From Bugula neritina (taxonomy: Eukaryota; Bryozoa; Gymnolaemata; Cheilostomatida; Bugulidae): a stretch of 64,000 nt of DNA. The position numbers and the translations under genes were made by a program. Under the pieces are notes generated by a model that saw only the letters and a program-made list of their open reading frames with translations, was not told the DNA's origin and did not search any database. Location: contig OZ037771.1 of NCBI GenBank assembly GCA_964035545.1, forward strand, positions 930,001 through 994,000, read 5' to 3'. Below, piece by piece: positions 253 through 63,185 of this stretch (positions are counted from its first letter, which is position 1; the number at the start of each line of letters is the position of its first letter).

Positions 253-2304
253 AAATCCATGGAGACAGCAGTGTTCAAGATGACACCATCTTGTTACCAG
301 AAGAACTCTCCCTGTGGCTGCACACCGGATAAAGAAGCAAGTAGACTGGTCACTCACTCTGACTGCATCAAACGGGTTTGTACTTGCACACTGTCATCTC
401 AACTTACGAGGTTGTTGCTACTGTCGTAGTTGTCTTCTCTACCTACATTGTACAATAAACTACCTACAGCATAGATTCTTTAGAATAACTTAGATCTAAC
501 ATTCCTCATTTATAATGCTGGTTTCTGCTGTCAGCTGGTTAGTTGTGTCAGCAAATATAATATATTAATAAATAACAAAAATAGTTGCATATGTAATTAC
601 TATCCAATATATGCTATTACACTATTATACATGTGTCACTGCACTCACCTACATATGTCACTACACTCACCTACATATGTCACTACACTCACCTACATGT
701 GTTACTACACTCATCTACATATGTGATTACACTCACCTACATATGCGATTACACTCACCAGCTACATATGTCACTACACTCATCTACATATGTCACTACA
801 CTCATCTACATATGTTACTACAGCTCACTAAGACAATGTGTTGCTGCAGGTGTATAAGTTAACTCTGCCAGGATGGCTCTACCTCTGCTTTGCTTTTGAA
901 GTCCTCAATACGACGTCTAATCGAATCTATTTGTCACCCATAGACAGCATGTACAACTTAACTCGTAAGTATACAGTACGTACAACTTAACTCGTAAGTA
1001 TGCAGTACGTACAACTTAACTCGCAAAGTTTACAGTATGTACAACTGGATAAAGTGGGAGTAAGGGTAATTTGTAGATTTGTAGAAGCTGTCTGAACTTC
1101 TGTGTTGGTAGTAAAGGAACTGAACGGCAGAAAGGACTTTCAGCTCTATCGACAAGAATCTGCTAGAAGCAAAGCTGACACTATAAGCCAAAAGTCCGCA
1201 GACTTAGAAAGTTTTGCGTACAGTACCGACCCCTATAATCTGAGAATAAAGATGATGGGATCTGGGCTATACCACTTCAGATCTGCTGTGCCGCCCATCA
1301 TGTCGTATTGCACCTTGCAGACAGAGTTTGTGGTGAGCCGGTTTAGCCTGTCATATCCCGCGATACAATAGTATCAGTTAGTTTGTATGCTGACAGAGAA
1401 AGAGCCTTGTTTGGTGAAATTATGATGATACTTGTGGGATTAGAGAGAATAAAATTCAACTAGAGTAAAATAAAATTGGAGACACTACAGCTTGCATTTG
1501 TTTCTCTTGTGACAGGTTTATGTTGATGAGCCTCCTGTACCTTACCCTCTGCTATTTCTCATGAACTTTGGGGTGGCAATCGGTAAGCCCCTTTATGTAC
1601 TTGGTTGGTGTCAGCTGTCATACTATACAGTGTCAGCTGTCATACTATGCAGTGTCAGCTGTCATACTATGCAGTGTCAGCTGCCATACTATACAGTATA
1701 CAGTATACAGTGTCAGCTGTCATATTATACAGTGTCAGCTGTCATACTATACAGTGTCAGCTGTCATACTATGCAGTGTCAGCTGTCATACTATACAGAG
1801 TAAGCTGCCTACTATACACTATACAGTGTCAGCTGTCATACTATACAGTGTCAGCTGTCATACTATACAGTGTCAGCTGTCATACTATACAGCTGTCATA
1901 CTATACAGTGACAGCTGTCATACTATGCAGTGTCAGCTGTCATACTATACAGTGTCAGCTGTCATACTATACAGTGTCAGCTGTCATACTATACAGTGTC
2001 AGCTGTCATACTATACAGTGTAAGCTGTCATACTATACAGTGTCAGCTGTCATACTGTGCAGTGTCAGATTTCTTGTATGTTCTAGGAATGGGGTTTGTA
2101 ATCTTCCTTATATACGCTGCGTACAGACTCAACAACGACTACAGTCTGTATATTCAAGAGACATTGCACAAGCCGGCGTGTATTCACACACCCACAGAGT
2201 TCAACCACGTTACCACCAAGCCATCTGACGCAGCCCTGCTCAATCATTACAACTCCCCGCTCAACTCTCCAGGTGTACGTAGAAGAACAAATGCTCTTGT
2301 ATAG
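253..2304 (+). CDS. C-terminal exons of a single-pass membrane protein, possibly a CatSper auxiliary subunit
   Basis: Five exons join in one frame: 253-375, 850-964, 1112-1332, 1516-1582 and 2087-2304 (stop TAG). The 5' part lies outside the window. The extracellular part starts with a Cys-rich stretch (CYQKNSPCGC, then HSDCIKR) and continues into VYKLTLPGWLY. Before the membrane there is a GLYHFR...SYCTLQTEFVVYV beta-strand-like block. One hydrophobic helix follows (FLMNFGVAIGMGFVIFLIYA), split by the last intron, and then a cytoplasmic tail of about 60 residues. The SDC motif, the Y.F.....SYC.L...F block and a C-terminal single helix remind me of CatSper beta/delta/epsilon subunits. That is recalled resemblance, not a search result, and another large ectodomain protein is possible. 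An AATAAA lies 35 bp after the stop. Confidence 0.65.
620..826. repeat. ~21-bp tandem repeat in intron
   Basis: Roughly ten copies of a unit like cactcacctacatatgt fill the end of the intron between exons 253-375 and 850-964. The open frames here (611-862, 633-857) come from the repeat and are not genes. Confidence 0.85.
933..1045 (+). repeat. Tandem array duplicating a 5' splice site
   Basis: The exon ends GTACAACTTAACTC, followed by the donor gtaagtata at 965. This junction is then repeated: gtacaacttaactcgtaagt recurs about 33 bp on, and a third degenerate copy reads aactcgcaaagt. Each copy carries the last 14 exon bases plus donor-like intron bases. Confidence 0.85.
1609..2065 (+). repeat. 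22-bp tandem repeat in last intron
   Basis: About 20 copies of tgtcagctgtcatactatac fill the intron between exons 1516-1582 and 2087-2304. Each unit ends in tactatacag, which looks like a weak 3' splice site. The open frames across it are repeat artefacts; only the last part of the 1930-2304 frame is real exon. Confidence 0.9.
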
Positions 2305-2338
2305 AACCTACTTGCTTCACTTTCTCTGTGTACAGTGA

Positions 2339-2344
2339 AATAAA
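2339..2344 (+). promoter_or_regulatory. Polyadenylation signal AATAAA
   Basis: AATAAA lies 35 bp downstream of the stop codon at 2302-2304, as expected for the end of the first gene. Confidence 0.6.
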
Positions 2345-2596: not shown

Positions 2597-7521
<4,925 letters not shown>

Positions 7522-16520: not shown

Positions 16521-16772
16521 AACTTAAAACTCTGCAAATGAGTTGCTGAGTTATTTATTAGTTCACTACAATAAATAGTGTACCCGACTAGGATCAAAAT
16601 AGTCTATCTTCTAGATAATATTATTTAGATTTGTCTTCTTAAAATGAAATTGGTTGTTTACATCTGAACAATCATTTTTGCTTGTATGCAGTTTTTGTTA
16701 ACTCATGTTGTTTAATTATGTTTACTTTTAGTTTTGTGAGTGTAGGCAAGTCGAAAAGATTCGTTTACAGAG

Positions 16773-17905: not shown

Positions 17906-18346
17906 ACAGAGTTACCTGCGCAAAGTTACCTGTGCAAAGTTACCTGGACTATTATCATCTCTAGAGTCAGTTTCTAGGTGCGATGCTTTTATGACTTGCA
18001 TGTAGCTTCTGAGTTTAACTTTTATCTATAACTATTTTATTTTTGGACACAATGTCAACCTTGCAGCTGGCTGAATATTAAATATATTAAACCTCTAGGT
18101 ATTGACTCTCACCGAGTATCTATATTTGTAGTCATAAGTGTTATGTAATATGGAAAGTGTTATGTAATATAGAAAGGGTTATGTAATATGAAAATAATTA
18201 AAGTTTATTTAAATCTGTATAAAGCTGATATAAGCACTGGAATACATGATAGTATATTTGTATAATATGTGTTTTGTTTTCCATCACCATACTTAGAGTT
18301 TAGGCTGATAGATGTTAGCACGGTTGATAGAAAGAAGGGGGCGTAT
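17906..18346. other. Tail-to-tail spacer between TRAPPC2 and SPATA4
   Basis: This is the 3' UTR space of two convergent genes. It has three short copies of gtgttatgtaatatggaaag near 18137-18195. No exon or RNA gene seen. Confidence 0.5.
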
Positions 18347-21006: not shown

Positions 21007-24000
21007 ATGTCTGGCAACTCGGAATCACTAGACACATTTGATGCTATTATATTAGGAACAGGTGAGGCTCATTAACATTATAATTTATTGCTACAACTAA
21101 AATTAGATAATGATAATCAATGCAAGTTTATCATAATCATAATGATAATCATAATGGACATTCACATGGTATTGTCGTTGCCAATTGGTCACTGGTCTTG
21201 GAGTTTGAGCTTGGTATTTACTTCAAACTCTCAGTCTTACTCAGTAAATCACTAAAATTGAATGTAATATGATCACTTTAAGTTTATGATAATATAAATG
21301 AAATTAAATATGGTTAACTTTATCAGTTTATGTAAAATGCATTTTTTACTGTCTCATTTGTTGTTAATTTTTGTTTATATTGTGATTGTGTGAATGTCAT
21401 ATTTATATTGAATTTGATGCTCATCCTTATCACTTGAAGTTGATCATCTGTGAGTGTGATCATCATGATCATGGTCAACATGATTGTCATTATGATTATG
21501 AATACAATAATCGTCATTATTATCATATTCATGTTGTTGTATGGACACATAAATATATGCTTATCGTTGTTGCTATAATTAATTATCATTATGATGTAAA
21601 ATTAGTTATTGATTTATGATTATTATCATTATGATTATTATTGTTATAAGACTAGGTATCAATTGTAACTTGAGCTCATGCCTATGGGCATAGTGATTGT
21701 CATGACGATCATGATTTCACTAGTACTAGTATTACTCCTAGCAGTACCTTACCTAAAAGCCAAAGCTAATTTTAATTGTTGTCACTTAATTTTATATCAA
21801 TTTTATTAAATATGCTAATCCTAAAAATAATAACTTTCAGTGAAAGTTTAATTTAATTACACTGTTGCTATTACTGCATTAATACTATAATTTCTACTAA
21901 CAGACCAGTTTAATCTAATGTACCAATAGTAATAGTAATTATTACATAAAGTAGCTATTACTTATAATGTATCGATATAAATATTCTCTGTTTAACCGTT
22001 TCTGTCAGGTCTGAGTGAAAGCATCTTAGCTGCAGCCCTATCTCGTGTAGGCTACTCAGTGCTCCATCTTGACAGGTTGGTAATTACATTCCATGCAATA
22101 TAGTGTAGTTTTACAACTTTCAATCATATCAATGCATATACATAAAATGATATATTTTAATGTATTTGTGACGCACTGAAGCGGGGATAAGTAATAAGTT
22201 AATATATTGCAGTTTTAAACTTGAAGCTCACATTAAAAGTTGGGGTGTGGAATGTTTTATTTGTTCATATTACTTCTGAATCTGGATTCACAAATTGCAA
22301 ACAACTATCTGTTGATTTGCAGTTTTCTATACTTGATGCATCTGACCTAAATCAATTAGGTCAAACACTGTTAGTGTTGAACAGAGTTTACTTAGTTTTA
22401 GGGCTGCTAATAAATCTACAACTTTCTTCAATACTGGACTGTGTTCTGTTTGTGTAGAAACACTCACTGTGATTGGCTGTGTTCTGTTTGTGTAGAAACA
22501 CTCACTGTGATTGGCTGTGTTCTCTTTGTGTAGAAACACTCACTGTGATTGGCTGTGTTCTGTTTGTGTAGAAACACTCACTGTGAGTGGCTGTGTTCTG
22601 TTTGTGTAGAAACACGTACTATGGTGAGCTAGAGTCAACTCATACACTGAATGGTCTACTAAACTACGCAGAGAACCATGCAGAGAGATTGCCTCCTCCA
22701 CACACTACACTGTCACTAGACGGTGACCAACTCTCCATCTCTCTCCCTGTAAACAGTGCCCCATCCATCACCAACCTGTCTTATGTGACTTACAACATTA
22801 CGTATGCTTGTTATTTCTACTACTTCTTTATTAAAATTATTATTTATATTCTGTTTTCTGAAGTAAAGACAGTTTAGTTTATTATTCTAATAGCAGAGTT
22901 CAGTTGACTGGATTCTATAAAATCTTTGTTGTTGCGTTGTCATAACATGCTTTTTTTAATTCTCACAAACTGGATATTTTGAGTTTTAAAATCTATCAAA
23001 GATTTTTTTACGTGCATCAAAAATGTTTTTATAGAAATAATAATTACGTTAAAACTGTTTGTGTTGTCTTCAGTGATGAAGAACGGTCACTTTATCTGAG
23101 AGGAATCAAAGAGCTGGATGCATGCATTACCAATTCATCAGCTTCTCCAGAAGTTTCTTCAACTGTGGAGGTAAGCTGTGGTTGCTGTGTTACTTATAGA
23201 GACAGAGTATGAATAGTGAAGTCAAAGACACATTATATTTCTTTACGTTTTCCGAAGTTATTTGTTCTTGATGCACATTTTAAAATAATTTTTTGTATTT
23301 AAAATGGCGTAGATTTAAATTGAAGCAGCTATTTGGTTTTAGTGTGTACCAATACCTTTATTATGATAATTTCAATAGGTTATCTATGCAGGATAATACT
23401 ACGCTACATGTTTTATAACAGTTTTACAGCAAGTATAAAGCTTTAGCCTTTTATATATATACCCCACTTCCTATTATTGACAGTCACAGGCTAACAGTGG
23501 AACAGACAACTCCCAATCTCTCAACTCTACTGTTGAGTTGGAAGGGAACAAGGAGGTTGAGAAGACAACTGCAAATGCTGAACTACCACACATAGATGAG
23601 ACCAAACTCAACCCGGTGTTGCAGACTTGCATCAATCTGGACCAGGAGTATGGTGTTTGTGAGGAGCACAAGCTTGCTTACTTGACAAAGAAGAGCAATA
23701 AATTTATTCTAGACTTGACTCCAAAGGTAATCATACAGTTTATAATGATATTTTGCTTTGTTAATTTAAAAAATATATATTATAATGGTTTTATAGAAAT
23801 CAGCGTAGTAAATGTAGCAATCCTGAATGTAACTTTAAAAGTAATAAATAAGTTCATGAAATGAAGATAATGTTTTCACAACTGTCTTGTATATAATAAA
23901 TATTATTTTCATGGACTGGGTTCATAGCGGTAATGGGTGAAATTCTGGCTTTGATGGTTACCTCGGGTAGCAGGTGTGAAATAGCTGCCATTTCTATAAT

Positions 24001-30000: not shown

Positions 30001-33000
30001 TGCTGCCTCTCTCCTTCAGGTGCTGCCACTCTCTCGCTCAGTGTTATGTATACTAACATAGTGTTACTAATACACAGGATATGTATAAGTATATAGTCAG
30101 TTGTAGAGTCTACAGTAATAGCCCAAGTTCTTGTTAAATATTGTGTGTTTTGATGTTGTCTGAATAGGGCCTTGAGAGAACACAGCTATTTCTGAAGTCA
30201 ATAGGGAGGTATGGCCCTACGCCCTTCCTATGGCCTCTCTATGGTGGGGAAATCAACCAGGCTTTTTGCAGGTACTTAATCTATGGAATGTAATATATAT
30301 TTCATAGTAACGTATACCCTGTATTATGTAATATATATTTCATAGTAACGTATACCCTGTATTATGTAATGTATATTTCATAGTAACATATACTCTGTAT
30401 TATGTAATACGTATCTACCTGTAGAATGTCTGCTGTGTTTGGAGGTACATACATTCTAAACAGAACTGTTTCAGATATCATCGTCAGCAAACACACCTCC
30501 CAGTAAGTATATATTATACTCTGTTATATTGTCAAGTATATATTATACTCTGTTATATTGTCAAGTATATATTATACTCTGTTATATTGTCAAGTATATA
30601 TTACACTCTGTTATATTGTCAAGTATATAATTATTATACTCTGTTATATTGTCAAGTATATATTATACTCTGTTATATTGTCAAGTATATATTACACTCT
30701 GTTATATTGTCAAGTATATATTATACTCTGTTATATTGTCAAGTATATATTACACTCTGTTATATTGTCAAGTATATATTATACTCTGTTATATTGTCAA
30801 GTATATATTATACTCTGTTCACTGATGTCTTCCTGCAGAGTTACACACATAGTATGCAATGAGGGCAAAGAGATCAAGTGTAAATGGCTCGTAATCAACG
30901 CAGACTACACAAGAAATATTCTGTCGGGTGCTGAGCAGGTAGCCCCTAGCAGGCAGATATCTCGGGCTATAGTTGTCACGTCGGGTAGTCTGAGAAACAC
31001 CGACGGCAGGGAGGAGGTCTGTTGGTTATAATATTATCTTCTCACTGTCACCAGGTGTCTGGCATCACATAGCACCTGTTCAGTGTGTCACATCCATGTG
31101 TCAGTTGAAACTTGTCTCTCTCTTGCTGCCCGCTCTGCTGACCTTGGCAGCAGGTGCTGCCTGTCAGTGAGTAATCAGGTGATTTCTCTGTAGACTGTGC
31201 TCCTGAGTATCCCTGCACTGGATGGGGCTAGTCCGCCAGTAACCGCTATAGAGTTAGGATCCTCGGCTTGTGTCTGTCCCAAAGATGAGTCTAACCTTCG
31301 TAAGTCTATACTCTACTGTCTATACTCTACTGTCTATACTCTACTGTCTATACTATACTGTATATACTATACTGTCTATACTCTACTGTCTATACTCTAC
31401 TGTCTATAATCTACTGTATATACTCTACTGTCTATACTATACTGTATATACTATACTGTCTATACTCTACTGTCTATACTCTACTGTCTATAATCTACTG
31501 TATATACTCTACTGTCTATACTCTACTTTCTATACTCTACTGTCTATACTCTACTGTCTATACTCTACTGTCTATACTCTACTTTCTATACTTTACTGTC
31601 TATAATCTACTGTATATACTCTACTGTCTATACTATACTGTATATACTATACTGTCTATACTCTACTGTCTATACTCTACTGTCTATAATCTACTGTATA
31701 TACTCTACTGTCTATACTATACTGTATATACTATACTGTCTATACTCTACTGTCTATACTCTACTGTCTATAATCTACTGTATATACTCTACTGTCTATA
31801 CTATACTGTCTATACTCTACTGTCTATACTCTACTGTCTATACTCTACTGTCTATACTCTACTGTATATACTCTACTGTCTTCACTCTACTGTCTATACT
31901 CTACTGTCTATACTCTACTGTCTACAATTTTTCTTGTTTTGTATATATATTTTATCAAGATATTTTGACCTCTTCTAGTTGTACTTTTGTTAACAGAACA
32001 TCTCATTGAACTCCATTACTGATACTGTAATGTATGACAGAGTAGATAACTCCCAACTGGTCACATTAGTGTATTCTAGTAATCATGTGTTAATAATATA
32101 TTTAGGAGTTGTGCACCTTACCACTCTCTCTAAAGGTACAGCAGAAGATGACCTTCACGAATATGTAGACTTATTGTTCGCCAGAAGTAAGTAACAACTT
32201 CTTATTGTATTTACAGAGTATGTTGGCGTACTATTACATAACATCCTGTCTGCTATATAGTACTAAATATTACACGCTTGAGCTGTTCATTATTTCAACT
32301 AGTACTGTTTTAGATGAAGATGAAAGTAAACCAAGAATGTTGTTAGCCTGTTATTTCAACATGCCTGACTACAGTGAGGGTGGTAGGCTCTCACCCCTCC
32401 ACCCAACTAACCTGTACATCACACCAGGGCCTGATGCTAACATTAATCCTGACAACTCGGTGCTGGAGGTAAATTCACTGCAAGACTATCGTGTAGTCTG
32501 CTTACTATTTGCTGTTACGTCTTCTGAATGCTGCCTGATGACTCACTCACTCTCTCACTCACTCACTTACTCACTTACTACTCACTCTCTCACTTACTCA
32601 CTACTCACTTACTACTCACTCACTACTCACTTACTACTCACTCACTCTCACTCACTCACTTACTCACTTACTACTCACTCTCTCACTTACTCACTACTCA
32701 CTCACTACTCACTCACTCACTTACTCACTACTCACTCACTACTCACTTACTACTCACTCACTCACTCACTCACTCACTAATCACTCTCTCACTACTCACT
32801 CACTCTCTCACTTACTGTGCAATCTGATTGCCTGTATTTGCTGAATATTCATACGTTTAGGAGTACATAAAGTAACTTCCCACATAGTTTCTAAAAAACA
32901 CTTCGAGCAATAAATTGAGTTCTGAAACCATTTAACCAGTGATCCACAGATAAGCAGTGGGTAGAACTATTGTAATTGTGTTTTATTAAACCCACAGGCT

Positions 33001-35180: not shown

Positions 35181-38100
35181 ATGGTAAGTTATACTTACTT
35201 CTACTCTACCACATCTTAGCTGTAGCACTTGCTGGGAGTATAGTAGAATAACAGTTAGTGTTATTATTTTATCGCCTCTTTAATGACTAAGTTTGGGTTC
35301 ATTTGAACTGATGTCTCTATTGTGGCTGCACTCTCTATGTACATGTATATCTACACCTACTAGTGGAACTGTGTATGTACATGTATATCTACACCTACTA
35401 GTGGAACTGTGTATGTACACATTTACAATTACTAATATAACTGTGTATGTAAACCTACCAGCTACATGAAAATGAAATTACTTAATAACATTTTCAGCAA
35501 GTGAAGTGGAAGCGTGATGTTCTAAAGACTCACATTAAATGTATGGAAATTTTCGAAAGAGAGAATCGATACTGTATTATTAGAATTAAGTAGGTGTTTT
35601 CTGAACCACCTGCCAGTTGAGTCATGGGCAATCATGACAGGTACAGCAAGTGCCCTATCACGGGCTTTCCATGTACCGATCTCAGATCGATCTCAGCAAG
35701 ATCGATCTGAGAAATGTGCTCAGATCGATCATTTTTCCATGGGAGTGTCAGATCAATCTCTCGAAGTTGCCTCCTCTTAAGTGAAGGATACTTTAAAAGT
35801 ATAATTTGTTCACCTATTTGAGTGATTAAAGCTACTACTGTTGAAAACAAGATGGTAGTAGTCTAAAATTTAATCCCAGCTATAAAATATACGCAGCAAA
35901 GCTTTCAGTGTATGGTAATTTGGCCAATTTAAAATAATTAATTTTAATCTTTTAGCTTGACAGCTTATATAAAATTAATGGCTGTCTTGCAGATTATTAA
36001 TAAACTTACAGGATTGTTAGGCTTAAAATTACAAAGAAAATAGCTAATGAAACTAAGTTTTGATAGTCATTTAAATTCAATTTAAATTTTCCCATTTTTT
36101 TACCCTCTACTGCATATAATTGAGTTTTCTTAATCACTGTACTGAAAGTCAAAGTTTTGGCATCTGAAAAAGTGGCTATCATGATTATTAAATACTTTGC
36201 TTAGTAATTATCAATAACTTATCATTTTTATTAGCAGACAACATTGTAGCGCGCAGTCTTTTTCTACTTCTCAGATCGATCTGGCGTCTTTCCATGGTCT
36301 TATTGTCATGAGATCGATCTTTGGCGTCTTTCCATGGATCGATCTCATGGAAAGCCGGTGTATGTGCTCTATGCTACCACTTGACATCTGTACAGTTAAC
36401 CTTAACTCCCAACCTGGAGACATAAATTTGAAGCTATAGTAACTGATAGCACGTGTGTAGTAAGTAGGTCATCTCTGTTTATCCAGAGAGCATACAGCAG
36501 CAGGTGGTAAGCTATTTTATTGCCTGTACCATCTCTGCTTACCAATACATATGAAGAAGGGATCCTAAACTTATTAAGTATTGTATTTTGCTATTTTAGA
36601 GTCAAATACACAAGACATGGATATTGAGTGTACTGGTAGTTGTGCTCTCTCTGTATACAAGTCGGGCAGCTGAGATCAGCTGGATAGGTAACTGGCTCTA
36701 CTCTGTACAATACTTGCTCAGCTCATAGCATTGGCAAATACAGCTGTCTCAGCTCTGAACTGTCTTTATTGTCGACTATCAGTGTTATAGCAGCATACAT
36801 ATCACGCTGCCATAGGTGGAGCCTGTTGAACAGGTGCTGACCATGTCATTGAAATGTAAAAGTGTCAAGTTTTTATCCTAACCTGTCATTCCACTCAAGT
36901 ATATAGTACTATGAACTAGTGGAGTAGTGAATTCAAATGGTTTGTGTTTCGTGTCTAGTCTTTAGCAAACAAAGTAGAATGCATGACAAAAAGTGACAAC
37001 GTTTTAATACGGAGTTATACTTGAAGCTGTTTAAGTTGAGGTTCTTATCAAATATCAAAGTTTAGGCAGAAAAAAGAAATAAATATTTGACATAATATTT
37101 TTACGAACATAAAAAGACTTTAGGTGAGCCGTTGGCCAGACTATGTGCAGTTCATGTGTCATTATATACTAACTATGTATATTAGCCTGTATTATTATAT
37201 ACTAACTATGTATATCAGCCTGTATTATTATATACTAACTATGTATATTAGCCTGTATTATTATATACTAACTATGTATATTAGCCTGTATTATTATATA
37301 CTAACTATGTATATTAGCCTGTATTATTATATACTAACTATGTATATTAGCCTGTATTATTATATACTAACTATGTATATCAGCCTGTATTATTATATAC
37401 TAACTATGTATATTAGCCTGTATTATTATATACTAACTATGTATATTAGCCTGTATTATTATATACTAACTATGTATATTAGCCTGTATTATTATATACT
37501 AACTATGTATATTAGCCTGTATTATTATATACTAACTATGTATATTAGCCTGTATTATTATATACTAACTATGTATATTAGCCTGTATTATTATATACTA
37601 ACTATGTATATTAACCTGTATTATTATATACTAACTATGTATATTAGCCTGTATTATTATATACTAACTATGTATATTAGCCTGTATTATAATATACTAA
37701 CTATGTATATTAGCCTGTATTATTATATACTAACTATGTATATTAACCTGTATTATTATATACTAACTATGTATATTAACCTGTATTATAATATACTAAC
37801 TATGTATATTAACCTGTATTATTATATACTAACTATGTATATTAGCCTGTATTATAATATACTAACTATGTATATTAGCCTGTATTATTATATACTAACT
37901 ATGTATATTAACCTGTATTATAATATACTAACTATGTATATTAACCTGTATTATTATATACTAACTATGTATATTAGCCTGTATTATAATATACTAACTA
38001 TGTATATTAGCCTGTATTATTATATACTAACTATGTATATTAGCCTGTATTATAATATACTAACTATGTATATTAGCCTGTATTATTATATACTAACTAT

Positions 38101-41100
38101 GTATATTAGCCTGTATTATTATATACTAACTATGTATATTAGCCTGTATTATAATATACTAACTATGTATATTAGCCTGTATTATTATATACTAACTATG
38201 TATATTAGCCTGTATTATAATATACTAACTATGTATATTAGCCTGTATTATTATATACTAACTATGTATATTAACCTGTATTATTATATACTAACTATGT
38301 ATATTAGCCTGTATTATTATATACTAACTATGTATATTAGCCTGTATTATTATATACTAACTATGTATATTAACCTGTATTATTATATACTAACTATGTA
38401 TATTAGCCTGTATTATTATATACTAACTATGTATATTAGCCCACATTATTATATACTAACTATGTATATTAGCCCACATTATTATATACTAACTATGTAT
38501 ATTAGCCTGTATTATAATATACTAACTATGTATATTAGCCTGTATTATTATATACTAACTATGTATATTAACCTGTATTATTATATACTAACTATGTATA
38601 TTAGCCTGTATTATAATATACTAACTATGTATATTAGCCTGTATTATTATATACTAACTATGTATATTAACCTGTATTATTATATACTAACTATGTATAT
38701 TAGCCTGTATTATTATATACTAACTATGTATATTAGCCCACATTATTATATACTAACTATGTATATTAGCCCACATTATTATATACTAACTATGTATATT
38801 AGCCTGTATTATTATATACTAACTATGTATATTAGCCCACATTATTATAAACTAACTATGTATATTAGCCTGTATTATATACTAACTATGTATATTAACC
38901 TGTATTATTATATACTAACTATGTATATTAGCCTGTATTATTATATACTAACTATGTATATTAGCCTGTATTATAATATACTAACTATGTATATTAGCCT
39001 GTATTATTATATACTAACTATGTATATTAACCTGTATTATTATATACTAACTATGTATATTAGCCTGTATTATAATATACTAACTATGTATATTAGCCTG
39101 TATTATTATATACTAACTATGTATATTAACCTGTATTATTATATACTAACTATGTATATTAGCCTGTATTATATACTAACTATGTATATTAGCCTGTATT
39201 ATTATATACTAACTATGTATATTAGCCCACATTATTATATACTAACTATGTATATTAGCCCACATTATTATATACTAACTATGTATATTAGCCTGTATTA
39301 TTATATACTAACTATGTATATTAGCCCACATTATTATAAACTAACTATGTATATTAGCCTGTATTATATACTAACTATGTATATTAACCTGTATTATTAT
39401 ATACTAACTATGTATATTAGCCTGTATTATTATATACTAACTATGTATATTAGCCTGTATTATTATATACTAACTATGTATATTAGCCTGTATTATTATA
39501 TACTAACTATGTATATTAGCCCACATTATTATATACTAACTATGTATATTAGCCTGTATTATTATATACTCTCTTTTAGGGACATACAAGTGGGCGGCTG
39601 CCACCACACTTGGTGCCAACATCACCTTCCATTGTGTTCTGCAAGACAACGGCACAGATGTGCTGCCAGAAAATGCAACTGCTATGACAAACACTGCCCA
39701 GTGGCGGCTGGTTGGTGACTCAACTCTGCGGAAAGACAGTTACTCTGTTGAGAATAAGTGAGTCATTCTATTGAGAATAAGTGAGTCATTATATTGAGAA
39801 TAAGTGAGTCATTCTATTGAGAATAAGTGAGTCATTCTATTGAGAATAAGCGAGTCATTATATTGAGAATAAGTGAGTCATTCTATTGAGAATAAGTGAG
39901 TGAACTCTGCTAACTAGGAGTTATCTTTACATTAGTTATAATGCTACGTCTTGGAGGTGGTTGACTATTTCATTTTATCTAAACTTTTGTGCGGCTGAAA
40001 TAATAAATTCCACTCCCAATTTAACATATAGACAAGAGTCAAATATTAGAATAGACTAGTATTGGTAAAACAAGGCATACTAGAGGGTTACTGATAATCA
40101 CTACATCTCCACAAATGTTCGCCATTAATTCCATTCACTACAACTTTTTGAGAGGATAACTCTAATTACACTCTCAACTGCTGCCCAGTAGCATGGGATA
40201 GAGGCAGCACCTGATGACCTTTAGTGTCAGGTCACATGGCTCCTTTGCTGCCTTGAGCTTACCATGAAACTCTTGTGTTGCAGAGTTGTAAAAGGAGACC
40301 AACTTCTCATCATGGGTGTGTCAGAGGCAGACAAAGGGATCTACATGTGCCGCGTGGACCTACAGTGCTCTGTTGTGGTTAGTATAAAACTATCTGAATT
40401 TACTAGATGACCCTGTTGAAGGTACTGTATCACCACATCCCCCTCCACTCCCCACCTGATTGCTATATTGGTATGATCATGTGGTATAGCACAATATTAG
40501 GCAATAAAATCTTAGAGAATTGTCCAGTTAAATATAATATTATATACAACTACTCTAGTATGTAGTATATATTGCATGTTGTTACAGGATGGATGTGACG
40601 GCAAGACAGAGATGTGGTACAAGCATGGACTGAATCTAAATGGCCCCCTTTATACGGACCTGCTAGAGAAATACACTAGAAACATCATAACGGGGAGCAT
40701 TGCTGCTGCCAGCGTAACAAGTCAGTATTACTTGAGTTTCATTACTTCTAATATTTCTAATATACTTGGAAAAAAATTCAGAATGAAAATAAATAGGTTT
40801 CAAAACGGAAATTTGCAGACCCTGCAAGTGGTAGCTCAGGGGTGATGGCTTTATGTTTCAAAACGGTGTTTTGTGAGTTCAAAATTCAGCTATTGATGGC
40901 TTTTTTTCAGTGTAAATATTTTCAAAATTAAAAATCAGCAGGTTTTAAAAGTAGGATATTTGGAGAGTACAAGTGCTAGCTCAGTGGTAGTGGTTTGGTC
41001 TTGAAATCCGGCATTTTGTGAGTTCTAAACTCAGTTAACTTTTTTAAAAAAAAAATTTCTACATAGATATTTCATAATAAAAAACAGTAGGTTTTAAGAA

Positions 41101-43622: not shown

Positions 43623-46600
43623 TCACCTCTCTTGAATATAAAACATTTCTTGTTTCTGGAAATCTAAATCACTGAATGTCTGTTCTAAAGGGAGTTCGGA
43701 TATTTTACGTCGTGGGAAGTTTGAAACTATTTCATATTTTTTTTCATCAAACCCAAGGCTGCGGACGTATAAGACCAGAGCCTAAAATTAATAACTGGAG
43801 TGTGAATATATAAACTAAGGCTCATTGCATACATACTAAACTCAACACTATAAAGTACTCATACTATAAAGTACTCATACTATAATAAAGTACTCACACT
43901 ATAAAGTACTCATACTATAGAGTACTCATACTATAAAGTACTCATACTATAAAGTACTCATACTATAAAGTACTAACACTATCAAGTACTCATACTATAA
44001 AGTACTCACACTATAAAGTACTCACACTATAAAGTACTCATACTATCAAGTATTCATACTATAAAGTACTCACACTATAAAGTACTCATACTATAATAAA
44101 GTACTCACACTATAAAGTACTCACACTATCAAGTACTCATACTATAAAGTACTCACACTAGACATTCTAACAGGTGCTAATAAAGCATAGAATTATTTTA
44201 TCCAGACAGAGAAACAAGACTCGTAATGCATATATGATGTTTTCACACCGATTCGAACTACTAACAAATATTCACATGACCCTCACCTTCAACTTAGACT
44301 GTGACTTGACGCACCACTGACACCTGGATTGGTCGGGTTTTCTAAGTAATATCTGAACGTCAGTGCCTAGAAAGTAGAGAACTCAAGCTATTACACCACC
44401 AGTCACTATTACATCACCAGCCAGGTTACAATAAGAAGAGTATACCATGACACAAGAGAGGTGTACCTACCGTGGACAGATGTGTACTCTCTCCAGTCTG
44501 AGCTCTCTGGATGTGTGTCGTGTGGACTCTGTTTAGATAGTATGTTCTGAGTACTGTCTGTGTGTGAGGTATTGTGTACACTATTGTTAGGAGTTGTGTT
44601 CCCTGTAGCGCTTTGTGAAGATTTTATAGATTGAACACCTGACTGGAGTTGTTTTCCCTTATTTTTGGACGGTTTACTGTCTTCCTACAACAATGGAGTA
44701 GAGTTCAGTATGATTTGTATAAGCGACTTTCAGACTCTGCAAACCCTACGTCTCAGATTTTCTACATGCTCAGTCTACTGTTGGTATATAGCTAGTCTAT
44801 AGTCAGTCTATAGCTAGTATATAGTCAGTCTACTGTTGGTCTATAGCTAATCTATAGCTAGTCTGTAATTAGTATATAGTCAGTCTATAGCTAGTATATA
44901 GTCAGTCTACTGTTGGTATATAGCTAGTCTATAGCTAGTATATAGTCAGTCTACTGTTGGTATATAGCTAGTCTATAGTTAGTTTATAGTCAGTCTACTG
45001 TTGGTATATAGCTAATCTATAGCTAGTATATAGTCAGTCTACTGTTGGTATATAGCTAGTCTATAGCTAGTATATAGTCAGTCTACTGTTGGTATATAGC
45101 TAGTCTATAGTCAGTCTACTGTTGGTATATAGCTAGTATATAGTCAGTCTACTGTTGGTGTATAGCTAGTCTATAGTCAGTCTACTGTTGGTGTATAGCT
45201 AGTCTATAGCTAGTCTATATTTAGTTTATACTACCAATACAGAACAAATAAAATTATTTATATTTACACAAAAGTTTCTACAAAACAAGTCGGTAAGTAC
45301 AAATAGCACATCCTGTGAGTCCAGTGCATAACATAAACAAGCGACAGCAGTGCACTATTTACATCTCTACATTTAATACAAGTACACTAATACACACATG
45401 ATCGCTGCTGCCGCTGTCTGAACCTGAGAAAGTCTCTAGGTCGCTGCCGGAGTCTGACTCATAGACGAGATCTTCCTTCTGCTGATTCTCTACAAGGGAG
45501 GCCTGTATGGCTGCCTCTAACTGCAGCTCCTCACTAGCTTCTAGCTTCGGATTAATGGCAATCTGCAGCAGACACTAAACTGTTATCTGCAGCAGATACT
45601 AAACTGTTATCTGCAGCAGATACTAAACTGTTATCTGCAGCAGATACTAAACTATATATACACACACTGTAATATATACACTGTAATATACACACTGTAA
45701 TATATGCACTGTAATATACACACTGTAATATACACACTGTAATATACGCACTGTAATATACACACTGTAATATACACACTGTAATATACACACTGTAATA
45801 TACGCACTGTAATATATGCACTGTAATATACGCACTGTAATATACGCACTGTAATATACGCACTGTAATATACGCACTGTAATATATGCACTGTCATATA
45901 TGCACTGTAATACACGCACTGTAATATACGCACTGTAATATATGCACCGTCATATATGCACTGTAATATATGCACTGTAATATATACACTGTAATACCTT
46001 GTAAGGTGAATTTGTCACAGAACTGCATTCTGTACCATCTGGTTTAGAGTGAACTCGAATAAATTCCTCCAACTCCTACAACAGGTAGTCTGAGTTGAAC
46101 AACACGTAGTCTTAGTTGAACAACAGCTAGTCTGAGTTGAACAACAGGTAATCTGAGTTAAACACTAGAAACAACCTTGGGATGAAATAGCCCAAGGTCC
46201 AAGGAATGTGAGTGACATCATGCTGTAGGACTGACCTGTGTGAATGACTTAAGAGTGACTGCGTTCCAGGTGTGTTGCAGCTCCGCAGTTAATGGATGTA
46301 GGATGGATATGTACGGCCAATGAGCCACAGGATAAAATTGAATAAACTTGCTACCTTCGGCGCTGTCGTGGTACACCTGGAAAAAGAGAATACATACTAG
46401 AACAATCTAGAACACATATTATGTGTGCAAGATGAAACGATGTTTGCAGTGTATGAGGGAGAAATGGTACACACATATTACATAGTATCCCAAGTTCTAC
46501 GTGGTGTAATACGGTATACTATGTGATATGTTTTAAATTTCACTAATTCAGATGAGAAAGAAACAACGAATCAACTGGCAAAAAATACTCATTGAAACTC

Positions 46601-48475
46601 AACTTTGGGACCACCCATGTGCGTATGTTTCTATTTACAGTACTTTGGTATTACCACCTACAAGGGCAAACAGCATATAACCTTACCTGCCAGAATATGA
46701 AGTGTTTACAGACCAAACTGCGTATGTGGGGGTCCTTCCAAATGTCCCTATTGAGCACCTGACAGGAGAACTCCGCCGTGTTCTGTATGTTCACCAGTAT
46801 CCACTTGTTGTCAAGTTTAGCCTTAGCCTGCACCTGCAACGCACACAGAGAGAGGTCCAGGTTGGAGAGTAAACCACTTCACTACAAACTTACAGACTCG
46901 AAAGAACCGTGGTGTATAATACAGACTACACACTTACAGACTCGAAAGAACCATGGTGTATAATACAGACTACACACTTACAGACTCGAAAGAACCGTGA
47001 TGTATAATACAGACTACACACTTACAGACTCGAAAGAACCGTGGTGTATAATACAGACTACACTTACAGACTCGAAAGAACCGTGATGTATAATATCTAA
47101 AGGAGGTCTGAACAGATCTTCTAATTTAGAAAGACGCTGAGAACTGATTGAAGATTCTTCTCCATTCTTTAACCTCCTCTCCTGCTCCCCTGAAATGACA
47201 CAAACATGACTCATCACGCCTACTGAGAAGTCCATAAGACACGCCTACTGAGAAGTCCATAAGACACGCCTATTGACTAGAACTAAACAGAGTCTTACTG
47301 GCTTCAGCTTGAAAGTCTCGGAACTTGTCGAACACCGAGTCCCGATGTGTACGCCGTCTCTTCCGCTCATTGGCCAACAGGTAATGATCATGTTCGACAA
47401 GTATTTCACGCTTTTGTGGGATTGGGGCCCTAACCTCTTCGCAGCTTCCAGATCTGCTCCTGTTGGTATAAAAAAATTCATATTGCAGAAAAATTTGTAA
47501 GAATATATGAGTTTTACTGATACCATAAAGATAGACTTATGTAAAGTTAAAGTAAAGTAAAATATTAATAAATTTGCAAATAAGATATATGCTAACGGTA
47601 AAGCTTCAGCCACAGCACCATTGCTGTCCATATGCATAGAAACAGCTAAATCTAAGTTCCCGCCACATGCTTCCAAGTAATTCTTAGCAACCTCAGCATC
47701 TGTCACTCCTACAATTGAAATAAATTGACACACTAGAGACACAGACAGTGTATGAAGTTATTCTAGAAAATTGATGCATAATAGATAAACTATTCATCAT
47801 TAACATGCCGAATGGTTAAAAGACGAGTCAAACATTAATTCTGAATCTCACTTATTTTATTTATTTTATAATCATAATGAAAATCAGTACTACCTTGAAG
47901 TTGATGAGTTCAATTCAAAATAACAAATTAAAATGGCGCTTATAAAATTAAATGCATGGCCATATTCACATTGGTATGATGAGACCCCATAGCCATAGGC
48001 TGCTAATAGTAGTACTAATAGTAGCACTATTAACTCTAAGTTGAAACTGTACTTGTAGAAATAGATAGTAGATATAATCATAATAATGCAATCACAATGA
48101 CATAGTATATCATATACTTATACTTATAGTACTACTTACAGTTACGGTTATATTCATATTGACTACGTTTACTTACCGATTTAGTTTTGCAAGTATAAGT
48201 ATTAATATATTAACTATTGTCTAGTAGTATTAGTATTATTCTATTACTATTACTATTAGTATTAGTATTAGTGACACTGAGTCAGTGTCTGACTACGAGT
48301 AAGTTTAAATTTATTCGAACTTGATTAGTAATTAGTATTATAATTAAAAAGTTTATTTTAAAACCAGCAAAGGATTTTAACATAGTAACAATAATAGAGC
48401 ATAAAGTTTCGTTATAGAAATATCAACATTACCTGTCACTGTCAAAAAGCTAGTGATTAAATCTTCCTCCTCCAT
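43623..48475 (-). CDS. UBXN7: UBX domain-containing protein 7 (UBA-UAS-UIM-UBX)
   Basis: Eleven minus-strand exons: 48433-48475, 47597-47708, 47299-47459, 47068-47189, 46687-46833, 46236-46376, 45998-46075, 45398-45562, 44471-44684, 44287-44366 and 43623-43781, 473 residues (human about 489). UBXN7 is a p97/VCP cofactor that links ubiquitylated proteins and cullin ligases to p97. Seen in order: UBA-like start (MEEEDLITSFLTVTGVTDAE, EACGGNLDLAV), EEVRAPIPQKREILVE, VFDKFRDFQAEA, a UAS thioredoxin-like domain (WILVNIQNTAEFSCQVLNRD, HFIFWQVYHDSAEG), a UIM (EELQLEAAIQASL), a Ser/Thr-rich linker, and a UBX domain ending NFPRRKISELPLEQTFSDL. Four junctions lie in splice-site-bearing tandem arrays. 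Exon 2 uses a gttagc donor and exon 8 a gtgtgt donor. Confidence 0.95.
43845..44160. repeat. UBXN7: 16-bp tandem repeat (aaagtactcatactat)
   Basis: About 20 copies fill most of the UBXN7 intron between exons 44287-44366 and 43623-43781. They do not reach either splice site. Confidence 0.93.
44770..45225. repeat. UBXN7: Compound tandem repeat (agtctatagctagtatatag)
   Basis: A higher-order array of tctatagctagtatatagtc and tctactgttggtatatagc blocks lies in the UBXN7 intron between exons 45398-45562 and 44471-44684. Confidence 0.93.
45561..45655 (-). repeat. UBXN7: 24-bp array duplicating a 3' splice site
   Basis: On the minus strand the acceptor of exon 45398-45562 reads gtctgctgcag followed by ATTG. 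The unit gtttagtatctgctgcagat is repeated three more times upstream, each with tgctgcag/AT. Confidence 0.93.
45656..45997 (-). repeat. UBXN7: 15-bp array starting at a 5' splice site
   Basis: On the minus strand exon 45998-46075 ends TACAAG, followed by gtattacagtgtatat. The unit attacagtgcatat is then repeated about 22 times. With the acceptor-derived array next door, the whole 435-bp intron is built from copies of its own two ends. Confidence 0.93.
46880..47085 (-). repeat. UBXN7: 44-bp array duplicating a 5' splice site
   Basis: On the minus strand exon 47068-47189 ends ACGGTTCTTTCGAGTCT, followed by gtaagtgta. The block ggttctttcgagtctgtaag then recurs four more times downstream, about 44 bp apart, each with the last 15 or so exon bases and an intact gtaagt. 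Confidence 0.95.
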
Positions 48476-53008: not shown

Positions 53009-53034
53009 GAAGGAGGCGGACATTGCTGCCGTGT

Positions 53035-54250: not shown

Positions 54251-57200
54251 ATGATGTTGAGGAAAAGCTGTCATGTGATCGTCTGGTGGCTGCTTGCTGA
54301 CGTCTACCAGATGGTAATGTCAGCACCCTGGAGTGACAGCAAGTTTAGAGAACTCAATAGGTAAGTGCATGGATTAAAAGACAATATAAACATCGATGTT
54401 TATATTTACTTGATACTCTGTTAAATGTCATAGCAGCTGGAAACCTTCCCAGCTTTTGTCAGAGTCCTACACTTTCCATGCTCTACTATATAAGTAAATA
54501 AGTGAATGAGCTACTTGTCAATATATTCCTGGCTAATCGGACATCATAACCTTCTTGTGTCCTTGACTTGACTTTTTCAGAGCTAAGACTATATTTGCTA
54601 TAACTTGATAAAAACCAAAGCATAGTATAACTTGATATTTTGATAGCTTTGAGCAAGTAAGTTGCTGCTATGGGTAGCACTTACAATAGCTGTGGTTGCA
54701 AATAAAAACAATATTTACAAATAATATTATTTAAGATATAAGCCATTGAGGAAAGAAATGGCGGACAGGGAATATCTCTCAAGATACGAGATGCCAGAGA
54801 AAGACAGCAGTGAATATTTCCCGCAGTACAAGTCAAGACCAGTCAATCCTGCTTACAGTTTCTATGCACCTGCTGAGAGAATGAGTTGGTACGGCAAACA
54901 GGCAGACCCGGTGAGTCATGCATCCTGTGACTGCTGTGTGTGTGGAAGTGTCTTGTGAGTTGTGTGTTTGTGGGTGCCGGTATGTGTGCTTGTACGTGTG
55001 TGTGTTTCAAATTAACACGTGTGTGGAAAGATGTTTAAGGTAATCAATGCCGTAAGCTGTGTTGAAAAATGTGTGTAAGAGAAACGCAGCTGCTCTGATA
55101 TTTTCTAAGCGTCCAAAGCCATTACTTAATTAATTGCATGTCAACGTGTATAACCAGTACAGGTAAAATATTCTTAAACATTAGCTTGACTTGAAGCAAA
55201 TGAAAATGCTGACTTGAAAACATTCACCATAATTAAAATCAATAAACTCATCAGTTTAGTTGATAAGTGGAAATTGAGTTTTGTTTTGAAGGCCAAACTG
55301 CCAAACTACTTGTGTTTAAGAAAGTATGCCAGGGTCATTTTGGAAGATATAAAAGATTACCTAACATGTCATAATATTATTGAAAAGCTTCATTGATTTT
55401 GTAAACTGTGAGCTCTAAAGTAGAAGGAAAGAGAAGCTAGCCTATTGGGGACTGCCACGTAACTATTGCAACTGTATTATTGCTATACAAACCAGGACAT
55501 CTCCTCACTAACTTTTAGAGCCTGAACTAAACACCATAATGCAAATAATCTGGTTAGAATACCATCTCAACAGCTAAAATCATATAAAATAATATATATA
55601 TATTATTTCATTTTAGAAGAGATATAATAAATGCAAAGTTATTTTTAGAGTTTGTTATATTACTTCAACATAGTTATTAAAATTATACGACTATATTATT
55701 ATAAATAAATGATACATTATAATTATATGATTATCTTATCTATCATAAATAAAAAATTTAGTTATGTATATCGCTGATGGATCATTTAACATAAACTAAA
55801 AACTGAATATAAACACGAGCCAGGAGAAACTGTTTCACAAGCATGTCTGGTGCATGTGATATTTGTGTACAGTGGTATGACACCCCCTATGTTTACAAGC
55901 ATGTCTGTCACATGTGATATTTGTGTACAGTGGTATGACACCCCCTATGTTTACAAGCATGTCTGTCACATGTGATATTTGTGTACAGTGGTATGACACC
56001 CCCTATGCAAGAATAGCAAACCAGAATGAGCCTGACCAAGTGAGCAGACAGAGAGACGATGTGGCAATATTCAAGGAAGCGGATTACTACCCTGACCCTG
56101 AGGTAACGATACCCAAAAGTAGCCATATTGTCACATGTGACCCAAAAGTAGCCATATTGTTGAATGTGACCTTGAGGTAGCCACAATATCATATGTGACC
56201 CCGAGGTAGCCATATTGTCATATGTGACCCCGAGGTAGCCATATTGTCATATGTGACCTTGAGGTAGCCATATTGTAATACGTCACGAATTTGGTCACGC
56301 CTCAGTTAGGTTTGATACCAAACAGATAATGTAGCCTCAGATGGAAACAAGTTTAATAATGTATGATAATACAATGTTGACAAAAATTTTTTATTTCCCT
56401 CAATTACACAAATGCTTGCAGAAAGGGGACAAGCCCGAGGGCTGGGCTAGTGAGAGAGTGGAAGGTGATAGACTGAGATCCATACTAGAAGATGTACCAG
56501 AGGAGCACTCAACCGACCCCTACAGCTACCCTACCTATACTCCGCAGGACGGACTTGACATCCTTCAAAAGATCGGAGTAAGAGTTATAACATTGTCAGT
56601 TTGAGTCAGATTGCTAATGCTGTATAGTGTATAGTGTAGTGCTGAGATAGTATTTAGTATTGCTAATTGGTATCAATATTTGTTGGTATTGGTTTCAGAA
56701 AACCTAAGTGCAAAATGTACGGTTTAGAAATGAAAATTGAAAATAAAATTAAAAGAACATATTGATACTGAATTGAGAGTTATTTGCATACCGTATGGTA
56801 AAAGTATAACATAAATAGCACTATAATAATTAAAATAGTTTCAAAAGAACAGATTTTCCATAAACAATAAAGGTTATTTTTAATTTGATGAGATATTATG
56901 TTAACTGTAACACCTTCACACCAATTGTAATTGCAATAAAAGTCAAATACTTTTCAACATGAAAATTAAATTAAAAACAATCCAATAGTCCTACACACCT
57001 CTGGAGGTTACTTTTCAACCCATCTGCCTGATTTACAGTTCTGGCTAATTAATATGATTACCAAACATTAGTATGTGTGTAGCCATATATGAGTAAGACT
57101 ATAAGCATAAATGTGTGCATAATCAATAGATGGTAAATGTTTCCCACAAGTTGGCACTAAATTAATATTAATAGCATTTAATAGAATCAAGTGTCAGGGG

Positions 57201-58533
57201 AAATGTGTGTAGAGAGTGTGATATTTGCTGTTAACTTGTTAACCTATACTAGTGACAATGACCACAATTTCTATCAAAATATAGTATATTACAGTTGAAG
57301 TGTGAGCATAATATATGAAAAGTTTGAATCAAATGGCATTTGTTCTTTTAAAGTGAGAGAACTAGCAGATTTTTTCCAGCACTTTTCTAACTGTTTCAAC
57401 TCCTTTCATCCAGATAGTCAACAGTATAATAAACAGTACAGTAAACAGTACAGTAAACAGTACAGTAAACAATACAGTAAACAGTATAGTAAACAGTACA
57501 GTAAACAGTATAGTAAACAGCATAGTAAACAATATGGTGCTAATATGTGTAGATGCGACTGACAGACCTGACAACTGAGAGAGAAAATGGAGAGAATGAT
57601 GAGAAGGTTCTAGAAAATGAAGTCATTGAAGAAAGTGCAACAACTGAGCTGATGTCAGACAATGAGGCTAGGTCTCTACTTAGACAGCTTGAGGTGAGAA
57701 AACGCTGCCAATACATGTTGCTGCCGCTATGTAGCAGCGTCTTCAATTCCTCAAACTTCCTCACAAAGAGACAGTGATGTCATGGAAATCATTGGTTTTA
57801 GTAATAACAATCTTGGATTTCATTTTCTCTTCAATGTTTACAATTTCAATACTAGATAATGATGAGGCAGCTTTAGACTCTGTCTGTATCTTTAGGAAGC
57901 CGAAAGCATTAGAGAGGGAAACAGAGAAGGTAACTCCGAAGGTGAACATAACAAAGAGAGACTGGACATGAGCCAGCTGGCGGCCATGTTTGATGATACC
58001 GAGCAGAATGAGGATGAGGAGACACCTAAGGACAAGAAAAAGGCGGAGAGGTTATTAGTCTGTTATACTATATTTAGGACACCATAAAAGGACATCAGAA
58101 TAAAAAGCTTAGAAATTGTCTACTCATGTAGTGCTAGCCACTCCAACGTGCTAGGTGCACTCGTGCTGCTAATAGACCTAAACTAGTTATTATTTACAAA
58201 CAAATCAATCCCTGTGTCGCTATAAGAGAGTCAGAGTTGTGACGCAGGCAGACGAGTAATAGAGTGAAAATGTAACAAACTGTTTACTTGCATGCTTTCA
58301 GGGTCGGTTCTAAGGATGTCCCGACAAGAGATGAGATGAAGGACGACCTGCTAGACCTGATGTACAGCCAGAACCTGCTTCTCATGCAGGCCATACAGCG
58401 CATACCCTACGGCCAGTTGAAGTCGACTGAAGCTATCCAGCAGATCCAGGACCTTATCAACGAGGCCACCATGATTCAGACGGGCATTGACTCCATCTTA
58501 TCTCAGCTGAAGGAGTTGGGCGTAACAGAGTAG
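54251..58533 (+). CDS. Secreted acidic protein, unrecognised (possible prohormone or matrix protein)
   Basis: Seven exons: 54251-54360, 54736-54910, 55989-56102, 56422-56577, 57553-57693, 57896-58050 and 58302-58533, 360 residues, no phase conflict. It starts with a signal peptide (CHVIVWWLLADVYQMVMSA, likely cut before PWSD) and has no later membrane helix. The first half is Tyr/Pro-rich (SRPVNPAYSFYAPAERMSWY, ADYYPDPE, YSYPTYTPQDG). The middle is acidic (ENGENDEKVLENEVIEE, EQNEDEETPKDKKK). The last 75 residues form a well-behaved helical segment (DDLLDLMYSQNLLLMQAI, TEAIQQIQDLINEATMIQ) that looks like a conserved functional domain. There are a few dibasic sites (RK, KKK) and one GK, so a neuropeptide precursor is possible but unproven. 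Two of its junctions sit in duplicated-splice-site arrays. Confidence 0.75.
55840..56008 (+). repeat. 58-bp array duplicating a 3' splice site and exon start
   Basis: The acceptor of exon 55989-56102 and its first 19 bases (gtgtacag then TGGTATGACACCCCCTATG) occur three times, with exon-like starts at 55873, 55931 and 55989, exactly 58 bp apart. Only the last copy continues into the open exon. Confidence 0.95.
56090..56270 (+). repeat. ~36-bp array duplicating a 5' splice site
   Basis: Exon 55989-56102 ends CCTGACCCTGAG, followed by gtaacg. Downstream, tgacc(c/t)(c/t)gaggtagcc recurs four times within units ending catattgtcatatgtgacc. Two more copies have lost the gag|gta. The same exon thus has arrays at both edges. 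Confidence 0.92.
57415..57535. repeat. 10-bp tandem repeat (cagtaaacag)
   Basis: About 12 copies of acagtaaacagt lie just upstream of the acceptor of exon 57553-57693. The Lys-Gln-Tyr-Ser frame across it is an artefact. Confidence 0.9.
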
Positions 58534-58598: not shown

Positions 58599-58604
58599 AA
58601 TAAA
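58599..58604 (+). promoter_or_regulatory. Polyadenylation signal AATAAA
   Basis: AATAAA lies 65 bp after the stop of the secreted-protein gene; another follows near 58747. Confidence 0.6.
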
Positions 58605-62100: not shown

Positions 62101-63185
62101 GCTAATGAAAGAAAAGAGATTCTTACCTCAGTTTGCCCACCTTTTTGAAAGGACCACCGAACAAATGTGTAAGAGCTGTGAGTGACAGGCCCAGAGCCAG
62201 TGCCGGATTTACGAGGGGAGAGGTAGCACACTATCTTCGCACTGGAAAACAGCAGATACTTTCACATAATCACTTATTTGTAAAGTGTGTAGAATAGGTA
62301 AGGATATAGTAAGACAGAGCATACCTTCTAGTGAATGAGTATATAGTAAGACAGAGCATACCTTCTAGTGAATGAGTATATAGTAAGACAGAGTATACCT
62401 TCTAGTGAATGAGTATATAGTAAGACAGAGTATACCTTCTAGAGAATGAGTATATAGTAAAACAGAGTATACCTTCTAGTGAATGAGTATATAGTAAGAC
62501 AGAGTATACCTTCTAGTGAATGAGGATATAGTAGTATACCTTCTAGTGAATGAGGATATAGTAAGACAGATTATACCTTCTAGTGAATGAGTATATAGTA
62601 AGACAGAGTATACCTTCTAGTGAATGAGTATATAGTAAGACAGAGTATACCTTCTAGTGAATGAGTATATAGTAAGACAGAGTATACCTTCTAGTGAATG
62701 AGGATATAGTAGTATACCTTCTAGTGAATGAGTATATAGTAAGAGAGAGTATACCTTCTAGTGAATGAGGATATAGTAGTATACCTTCTAGTGAATGAGG
62801 ATATAGTAAGACAGAGTATACCTTCTAGTGAATGAGGATATAGTAAGACAGAGTATACCTTCTAGTGAATGAGGATGGTTCTTCATCTAAGGAAGTGATG
62901 TAACTCAAGTCAAGTGAGAGGCAGACTCTCTCATCATTGACATTAGTCCAAATAAGTCGATGACTAGTAAGAACAAGGTTACCATCTTCATATGCTGATG
63001 CCTACAGAGTCAATGGTAGCGATTGAACATTTATCTCGTAAGCAGCAGATCATGATCAGGAGTAACAAGAATAAATTAATCCACTGCACCTTGTTGTCTC
63101 CGTCATAAAGTTTAACACCATCATTAGAATGATGAAAATTTTCATCATCTTTCAATGAAACATTAGACCACTGCAGTCTATCCAT
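59167..63185 (-). CDS. VPS36: ESCRT-II subunit VPS36 (EAP45)
   Basis: Eleven minus-strand exons: 63090-63185, 62859-63001, 62127-62241, 61948-62031, 61596-61712, 61393-61470, 60853-60987, 60623-60688, 59998-60147, 59491-59567 and 59167-59266. They give 386 residues, the length I recall for human VPS36. The protein binds phosphoinositides and ubiquitin through its N-terminal GLUE domain and forms ESCRT-II with VPS22 and VPS25 for multivesicular-body sorting. Seen: [42 protein letters not shown] (GLUE); [20 protein letters not shown]; then the two winged-helix regions ([84 protein letters not shown]). No NZF finger, as usual in animals. The ATG at 63185 is chosen over an in-frame upstream GTG. 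Confidence 0.97.
59275..59390. repeat. VPS36: 13-14 bp tandem repeat (actgacactagta)
   Basis: About eight copies of ctgacactagtaa or tcgacactagtaa lie in the last VPS36 intron, starting just upstream (minus strand) of the acceptor of exon 59167-59266. Confidence 0.9.
60318..60465. repeat. VPS36: 12-bp tandem repeat (gttagtaggtga)
   Basis: Twelve copies of gagttagtaggt lie in a VPS36 intron, open in several frames on both strands. Low-complexity Val-Gly-Glu-Leu and Thr-Asn-Ser-Pro frames here are artefacts. Confidence 0.95.
62290..62858 (-). repeat. VPS36: 37-bp array duplicating a 5' splice site, about 16 copies
   Basis: On the minus strand exon 62859-63001 ends CTCATTCACTAGAAG, followed by gtatac. 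This junction recurs about 16 times as tcattcactagaaggtatac in 37-bp units (some 27-bp deleted forms). Every copy keeps about 14 exon bases and a usable gtatac donor. The array is almost the whole intron. Confidence 0.96.

Follow-up and report, generated by a model that had tools for sequence, protein, structure and literature searches.

Zhuo et al. reportedly described, in 2007, introns made from tandem arrays that carry splice signals. In amphioxus, the 'mirages' of the Adh3 and globin genes are minisatellite-like tandem duplications of exon–intron boundaries (PMC3087553). Mirages affect either boundary and contain splice signals in many of their copies, their length is variable and they show somatic instability, while the mRNA is normal (PMC3087553). 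In human segmental duplications, internal tandem repeats with units averaging 30 bp and ∼4 copies alter genes (PMC2812944). Among the papers listed in a literature search of open PMC, mirages were found only in amphioxus, and no bryozoan case was met. We studied splice-site-containing tandem arrays of the ruby bryozoan, Bugula neritina, where a sequence-only reading had considered introns growing from their own ends to be a mechanism not known to be described. This novelty is lost to the amphioxus mirages, which already amount to tandem duplication of exon–intron boundaries (PMC3087553).

The window, that is, the whole stretch of DNA analysed, covers 64 kb of B. neritina chromosome 7 (930001–994000) in an assembly totalling 215.8 Mb. 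The assembly was built from HiFi reads at ∼132-fold with a QV of 53.7 (PMC11480708), so that assembly artefact, raised in the sequence-only reading as a possible source of the arrays, is unlikely. TRF run over the window returned 101 rows, and the exons of 12 window genes were curated by hand. Outside the window, junctions come mostly from the predictions of a self-written gene-finder, trained on the window and neighbouring stretches and working from DNA rather than RNA; its predictions on masked and unmasked sequence were concordant. The curated set comprises 69 introns and 32 arrays, and the enlarged sample, in which most junctions are predicted, 315 introns and 186 arrays in 344 kb.

Pfam families were assigned to nine of the ten proteins tested (CATSPERB C-terminus, EGF, esterase, sedlin, CH_2, GDI/REP, methyltransferase, EAP30/Vps36 and Ig, the last below the cut-off), and PDB matches were obtained for VPS36, UBXN7 and REP1. 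A B. neritina database protein matches VPS36 at 99% identity, and the next best match, from the bryozoan Watersipora, reaches 72%. The window also holds a Ty3/gypsy-like retroelement ORF of 1561 codons on the minus strand (11838–16523), typed by eye from translated motifs, with a GC content of ∼60% that is much above that of its surroundings, and a perfect TC microsatellite of 144 copies (3137–3424). The REP1/CHM intron at 23727–29010 houses an entire antisense gene (23909–27900) for an ankyrin- and TPR-like protein whose domains were assigned by eye; the hand model of this gene has frame breaks (32 stops).

As can be seen in Table 1, the curated models place a splice site inside a TRF array at nine junctions of the window, involving nine arrays in seven genes. 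When the copies are aligned under one another, the units of each array are seen to include that gene's own exon end or start. At four of the nine junctions (965 in the CATSPERB-like gene, 22609 in REP1, 47067 in UBXN7 and 62858 in VPS36), protein homology passes uninterrupted when the exon-proximal copy is used; at 62858, both the Pfam Vps36_ESCRT-II match and the B. neritina database protein continue through. The other five are supported by reading frame and splice consensus. The sequence-only reading had counted at least ten junctions in at least five genes. Eight of its nine main junctions do lie in arrays, and junction 4182, absent from its list, qualifies as well, which gives the nine arrays in seven genes. 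The remaining main junction, 56103, adjoins a degenerate array, several of whose copies look like the end of the exon followed by GTA, and the weaker cases fail: at 45997, 30503 and 31300 the arrays leave out the first 1, 2 and 4 nt of the donor and so do not include the whole GT, and at 4700, in an intron outside the curated set, the array begins 44 nt off and just a degenerate stretch reaches the site.

Table 1. Tandem arrays at or near splice junctions of the window, with the strand of the array and the length of exon sequence that it includes
Array	Strand	Unit (bp)	Copies	Splice site or array edge	Gene	Exon included (nt)	Basis or remark
944..1046	+	29	3.5	5′ site 965	CATSPERB-like	21	TRF; Pfam CATSPERB_C match through junction
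4131..4189	-	22	2.6	5′ site 4182	EGF-domain gene	7	TRF and curated model
4307..4393	-	20	4.3	3′ site 4309	EGF-domain gene	2	Exon shared with 4182
22439..22615	+	38	4.7	3′ site 22609	REP1/CHM	6	PDB 1vg0 alignment gapless across junction
39744..39901	+	23	6.9	5′ site 39758	Small Ig-like membrane-protein gene	14	
45561..45653	-	24	3.9	3′ site 45563	UBXN7	2	
46881..47095	-	44	4.9	5′ site 47067	UBXN7	28	PDB 2dlx alignment gapless across junction
55831..56007	+	58	3.0	3′ site 55988	Predicted secreted-protein gene	19	
62304..62876	-	37	16	5′ site 62858	VPS36	15–18 by TRF row	15 decoy donors
56103..56280	+	29	∼6	5′ site 56103	Predicted secreted-protein gene		Degenerate toward the site; TRF edge 56111, 8 nt inside intron
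30505..30819	+	29	10.7	From intron base 3	REP1		Fills intron but for 21 nt; without donor GT
31304..31924	+	14	44	From intron base 5	REP1		
45665..45996	-	14	24	From intron base 2	UBXN7		
37161..39570	+	33	73	Ends 9 nt before 3′ site 39579			

Two observations adjoin this list. The gene with arrays at both 55988 and 56103 encodes a predicted secreted acidic protein of 360 amino acids (54251–58533, plus strand) that has no Pfam match. In addition, a 14-bp array at 17899–17946 overlaps the stop codon of TRAPPC2, with the coding end and the stop in its first copy, and resembles a junction-type array placed at a stop.

The GT or AG dinucleotide is kept in 39 of the 41 inner copies, a count that favours intact copies because those with more than three mismatches in the 12-nt context were left uncounted; the inner signals are thus not purged, and their retention is no proof of selection. 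Use of the nearest decoy would shift the reading frame in seven of nine cases, implying that the exon-proximal copy is probably chosen reliably. In UBXN7, the nearest decoy donor lies 42 nt away, in frame and with no intervening stop, and its use could possibly yield an isoform with a 14-residue insertion, as judged from the reading frame. In the Ig gene, all six intronic copies have an A where the exon has a G; this common A suggests, for this one gene, that the inner copies evolve together and separately from the exon.

A genome search that skipped simple repeats and very common words found no second site for the units at 39758 (Ig), 22609 (REP1) and 47067 (UBXN7), and outside its own array the VPS36 unit reached matches of 71–74% at most. 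With three of the four queried units lacking a second site and the fourth so weakly matched, we infer that the arrays formed in place. The segment 40902–48069 has a copy on another chromosome (C3, ∼986000–991000), in which exon stretches are 90–98% identical and introns and arrays ∼75–90% identical. It gave no before-and-after comparison, since the exons adjoining the junction arrays, those of UBXN7, are missing there. The same segment begins with a large inverted repeat (40902–42284), whose arms contain several tRNA-like boxes (GGTAGCTCAGTGGTAGAG, GGTTCAAA-like) and are, by eye, perhaps head-to-head SINE copies.

Whether nine junctions are many depends on the null model. In the founder null, each array is collapsed to one unit and placed at random so as to overlap its collapsed intron. 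In the curated set (69 introns, the REP1 intron with the nested gene being omitted), 9 of 32 arrays contain a splice site compared with 7.9 expected (p 0.38); in the rest of the 344 kb, with predicted junctions, the figures are 14 of 154 and 22.1, and for the combined 315 introns 23 of 186 and 29.9. A full-pipeline simulation, in which arrays were moved in the sequence and TRF and the gene-finder were rerun (14 runs), gave 25.1 crossings (range 17–30) against 19 of 171 observed, with some arrays unmoved because the procedure passes over those in overlapping blocks. When the gene map was rotated against the arrays, 14.5 crossings were obtained compared with 9 of 52 observed. For crossings overall, an excess appears only when whole arrays are shuffled at their present length across the window, their overlap with exons being kept below one unit (9 observed against 3.4, p 0.006). 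Among the founder, rotation and whole-array nulls, we trust founder placement most. The whole-array shuffle has no room for long arrays in short introns, spreads arrays over intergenic DNA despite their lower density there, and ignores the large share of their host introns that arrays occupy; its excess accounts for the impression, in the sequence-only reading, that arrays repeatedly include the junction. The comparison with shuffled positions that was proposed there, made here on curated and predicted junctions, is therefore null-dependent: enrichment is present under the whole-array shuffle and, for crossings overall, absent under founder placement, rotation and simulation.

Crossing arrays have longer units than the others (median 29 compared with 21, p 0.0002), as expected if straddling occurs by chance; since the introns are short, units of 20–58 bp will frequently straddle a junction by chance. 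The two intron ends are alike, with 11 crossings at 5′ and 12 at 3′ ends in the 344-kb sample, and multiples of three are not preferred among crossing units (4 of 23, compared with 57 of 163 in other arrays). The founder and simulation counts, together with the longer crossing units, lend no support to the idea that arrays are generally drawn across the junction. We conclude that, overall, arrays span junctions at or below the frequency expected under neutrality for short introns.

Ordinary repeat growth from a chance duplication across the junction is the explanation that we consider probable for the junction arrays, with the exon-proximal copy as the predicted working site. Such an array would start with one small tandem duplication that happens to straddle an exon–intron junction. 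As the exon end and the splice site stay complete in the outer copy, the duplication should be nearly harmless; within an exon, by contrast, an array would disrupt the reading frame. Growth would then proceed inward into the intron, with slippage or unequal exchange as the likely process; the copy next to the exon would stay the functional site, and the inner copies would evolve together and lengthen the intron. Array density is 1.18/kb in introns, 0.66/kb in intergenic or unassigned DNA and 0.13/kb in exons (8 arrays for 63,650 exon bases outside arrays), and the rarity in exons fits removal by selection.

The positions of arrays within introns bear on a second explanation. In the enlarged sample, 87 arrays have an end in the 50 nt of intron next to a junction, compared with 67.3 in simulation (range 62–73), and array density falls from 4.05/kb in the first 15 nt from the junction and 3.54/kb in the next 15 nt to ∼0.5–0.7/kb beyond 75 nt; microsatellites of the same introns are evenly spread (1.5–2.7/kb). 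In introns whose unique DNA amounts to 200 nt or more, 27 arrays of at least three copies lie within 50 nt compared with 11.0 expected, and crossings show a modest excess (9 against 5.3 simulated, range 3–8; 7 against 3.4 for arrays of at least three copies, p 0.048). This is the pattern anticipated if transcription, R-loops or splice motifs favoured the birth or growth of arrays near splice sites, so that introns expanded from their ends and the crossings were the visible tip; the similar end excess of arrays with low and high copy identity also agrees with it. We nevertheless regard favoured growth near splice sites as unlikely. Two-copy duplications outside TRF arrays are flat along introns (14 within 50 nt and 56 further away, 0.47 compared with 0.50/kb), crossings overall show no excess, acceptor motifs are not enriched in the units, and the curated introns alone have no significant end excess (16 compared with 13.4 within 50 nt, p 0.21). 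Given this last result, the end preference, which depends on predicted junctions, is kept as a tentative hint. A seemingly strong excess near the 3′ sites of introns with 200 nt or more of unique DNA (20 compared with 6.4, or 17 compared with 6.0 without the polypyrimidine term) shrank in simulation (23 compared with 17.4, range 12–21) and was set aside.

Splice motifs as the driver of array growth, another proposal of the sequence-only reading, receive little support. Acceptor motifs are as frequent in array units as elsewhere (1.07 compared with 1.05 per kb); donor motifs are twice as frequent (24 hits, 1.84 compared with 0.91 per kb), in a count that includes the junction arrays themselves. 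The pentamer GTATA was considered as a shared core (89 of 256 units in the 344-kb sample, compared with 8% of matched windows) and rejected, as its abundance mostly reflects dinucleotide content.

The suggestion that introns here lengthen through tandem arrays, in some cases starting at the intron's own ends, is borne out in the enlarged sample by the end counts given above and by the array content of introns: arrays account for 33,484 of the 177,239 bases of intron, and in 14 of 100 single-array introns there is little besides the array, both unique flanks being at most 40 nt long. A more ambitious form of this idea, in which end-anchored minisatellite growth is a leading route of intron lengthening here, tied to exon borders and leaving inner site copies intact yet unused, so that hundreds of genes would serve as splice-choice experiments between identical sites, we hold only tentatively and think rather doubtful.

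Array-bearing introns also tend to have little else in them. The non-array residue plus one unit is shorter than 100 nt in 19% of array-bearing compared with 10% of array-free introns (p 0.032), which is more than a lone founder duplication in an ordinary intron would explain. Non-array DNA falls below 60 nt in 24 introns, and 21 of these contain arrays. Together with the introns that are nearly all array, this raises the prospect that arrays take over introns, the array supplying the length while unique DNA is deleted down to the splice signals, until the array ends are pressed against the junctions. Such takeover is quite improbable, since a simulation starting from short residues yields 15.9 of these introns compared with 18 observed, which makes them indistinguishable from short ancestral introns, and since the end excess is present in long-residue introns as well. 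Selection for redundant splice sites, as spares or for alternative splicing, would suit the intact dinucleotides of the decoys and the in-frame, stop-free donor of UBXN7, but is very hard to credit given the frame-shifting nearest decoys, the few crossing units that are multiples of three, the lack of excess crossings and a unit identity that is high across whole arrays.

Chance straddling followed by ordinary repeat growth, our preferred reading, leaves arrays of identical sites as material for splicing studies: the 16 donors of VPS36 would allow one to ask how the spliceosome selects the exon-proximal copy. If the crowding at intron ends is true on RNA-defined junctions, the growth of introns from their ends would become measurable.

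In the arrays attributed to Zhuo et al., the array is said to create the intron, whereas in B. neritina existing introns apparently gained an array at one end; none of the 186 arrays in the 344-kb sample reaches both junctions of an intron, as would be the mark of an array-derived intron. Work on array-derived introns in human and fish differs from the present case in the same respect. The human internal repeats resemble those of B. neritina in that minisatellite expansion alters exon and intron length, and differ in that they belong to recent primate paralogues with half of them in coding sequence, while the coding sequence of B. neritina is largely spared (PMC2812944). The likeness to the amphioxus mirages goes further: in both, units span the 5′ or the 3′ boundary and AG or GT is kept in many copies, and the homogenisation of inner copies apart from the boundary unit, described for mirages, is suggested here by the one Ig gene (PMC3087553). 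Unit sizes overlap, being 10–72 bp in Adh3 and 150–160 bp in the globins compared with 20–58 bp in B. neritina (PMC3087553). The hosts differ, mirages being described there in a cephalochordate, whereas nine arrays lie in one 64-kb window of a bryozoan (PMC3087553). By this analogy, the junction arrays of B. neritina appear to be mirage minisatellites in kind, which would extend the phenomenon to another animal phylum, now with a null model.
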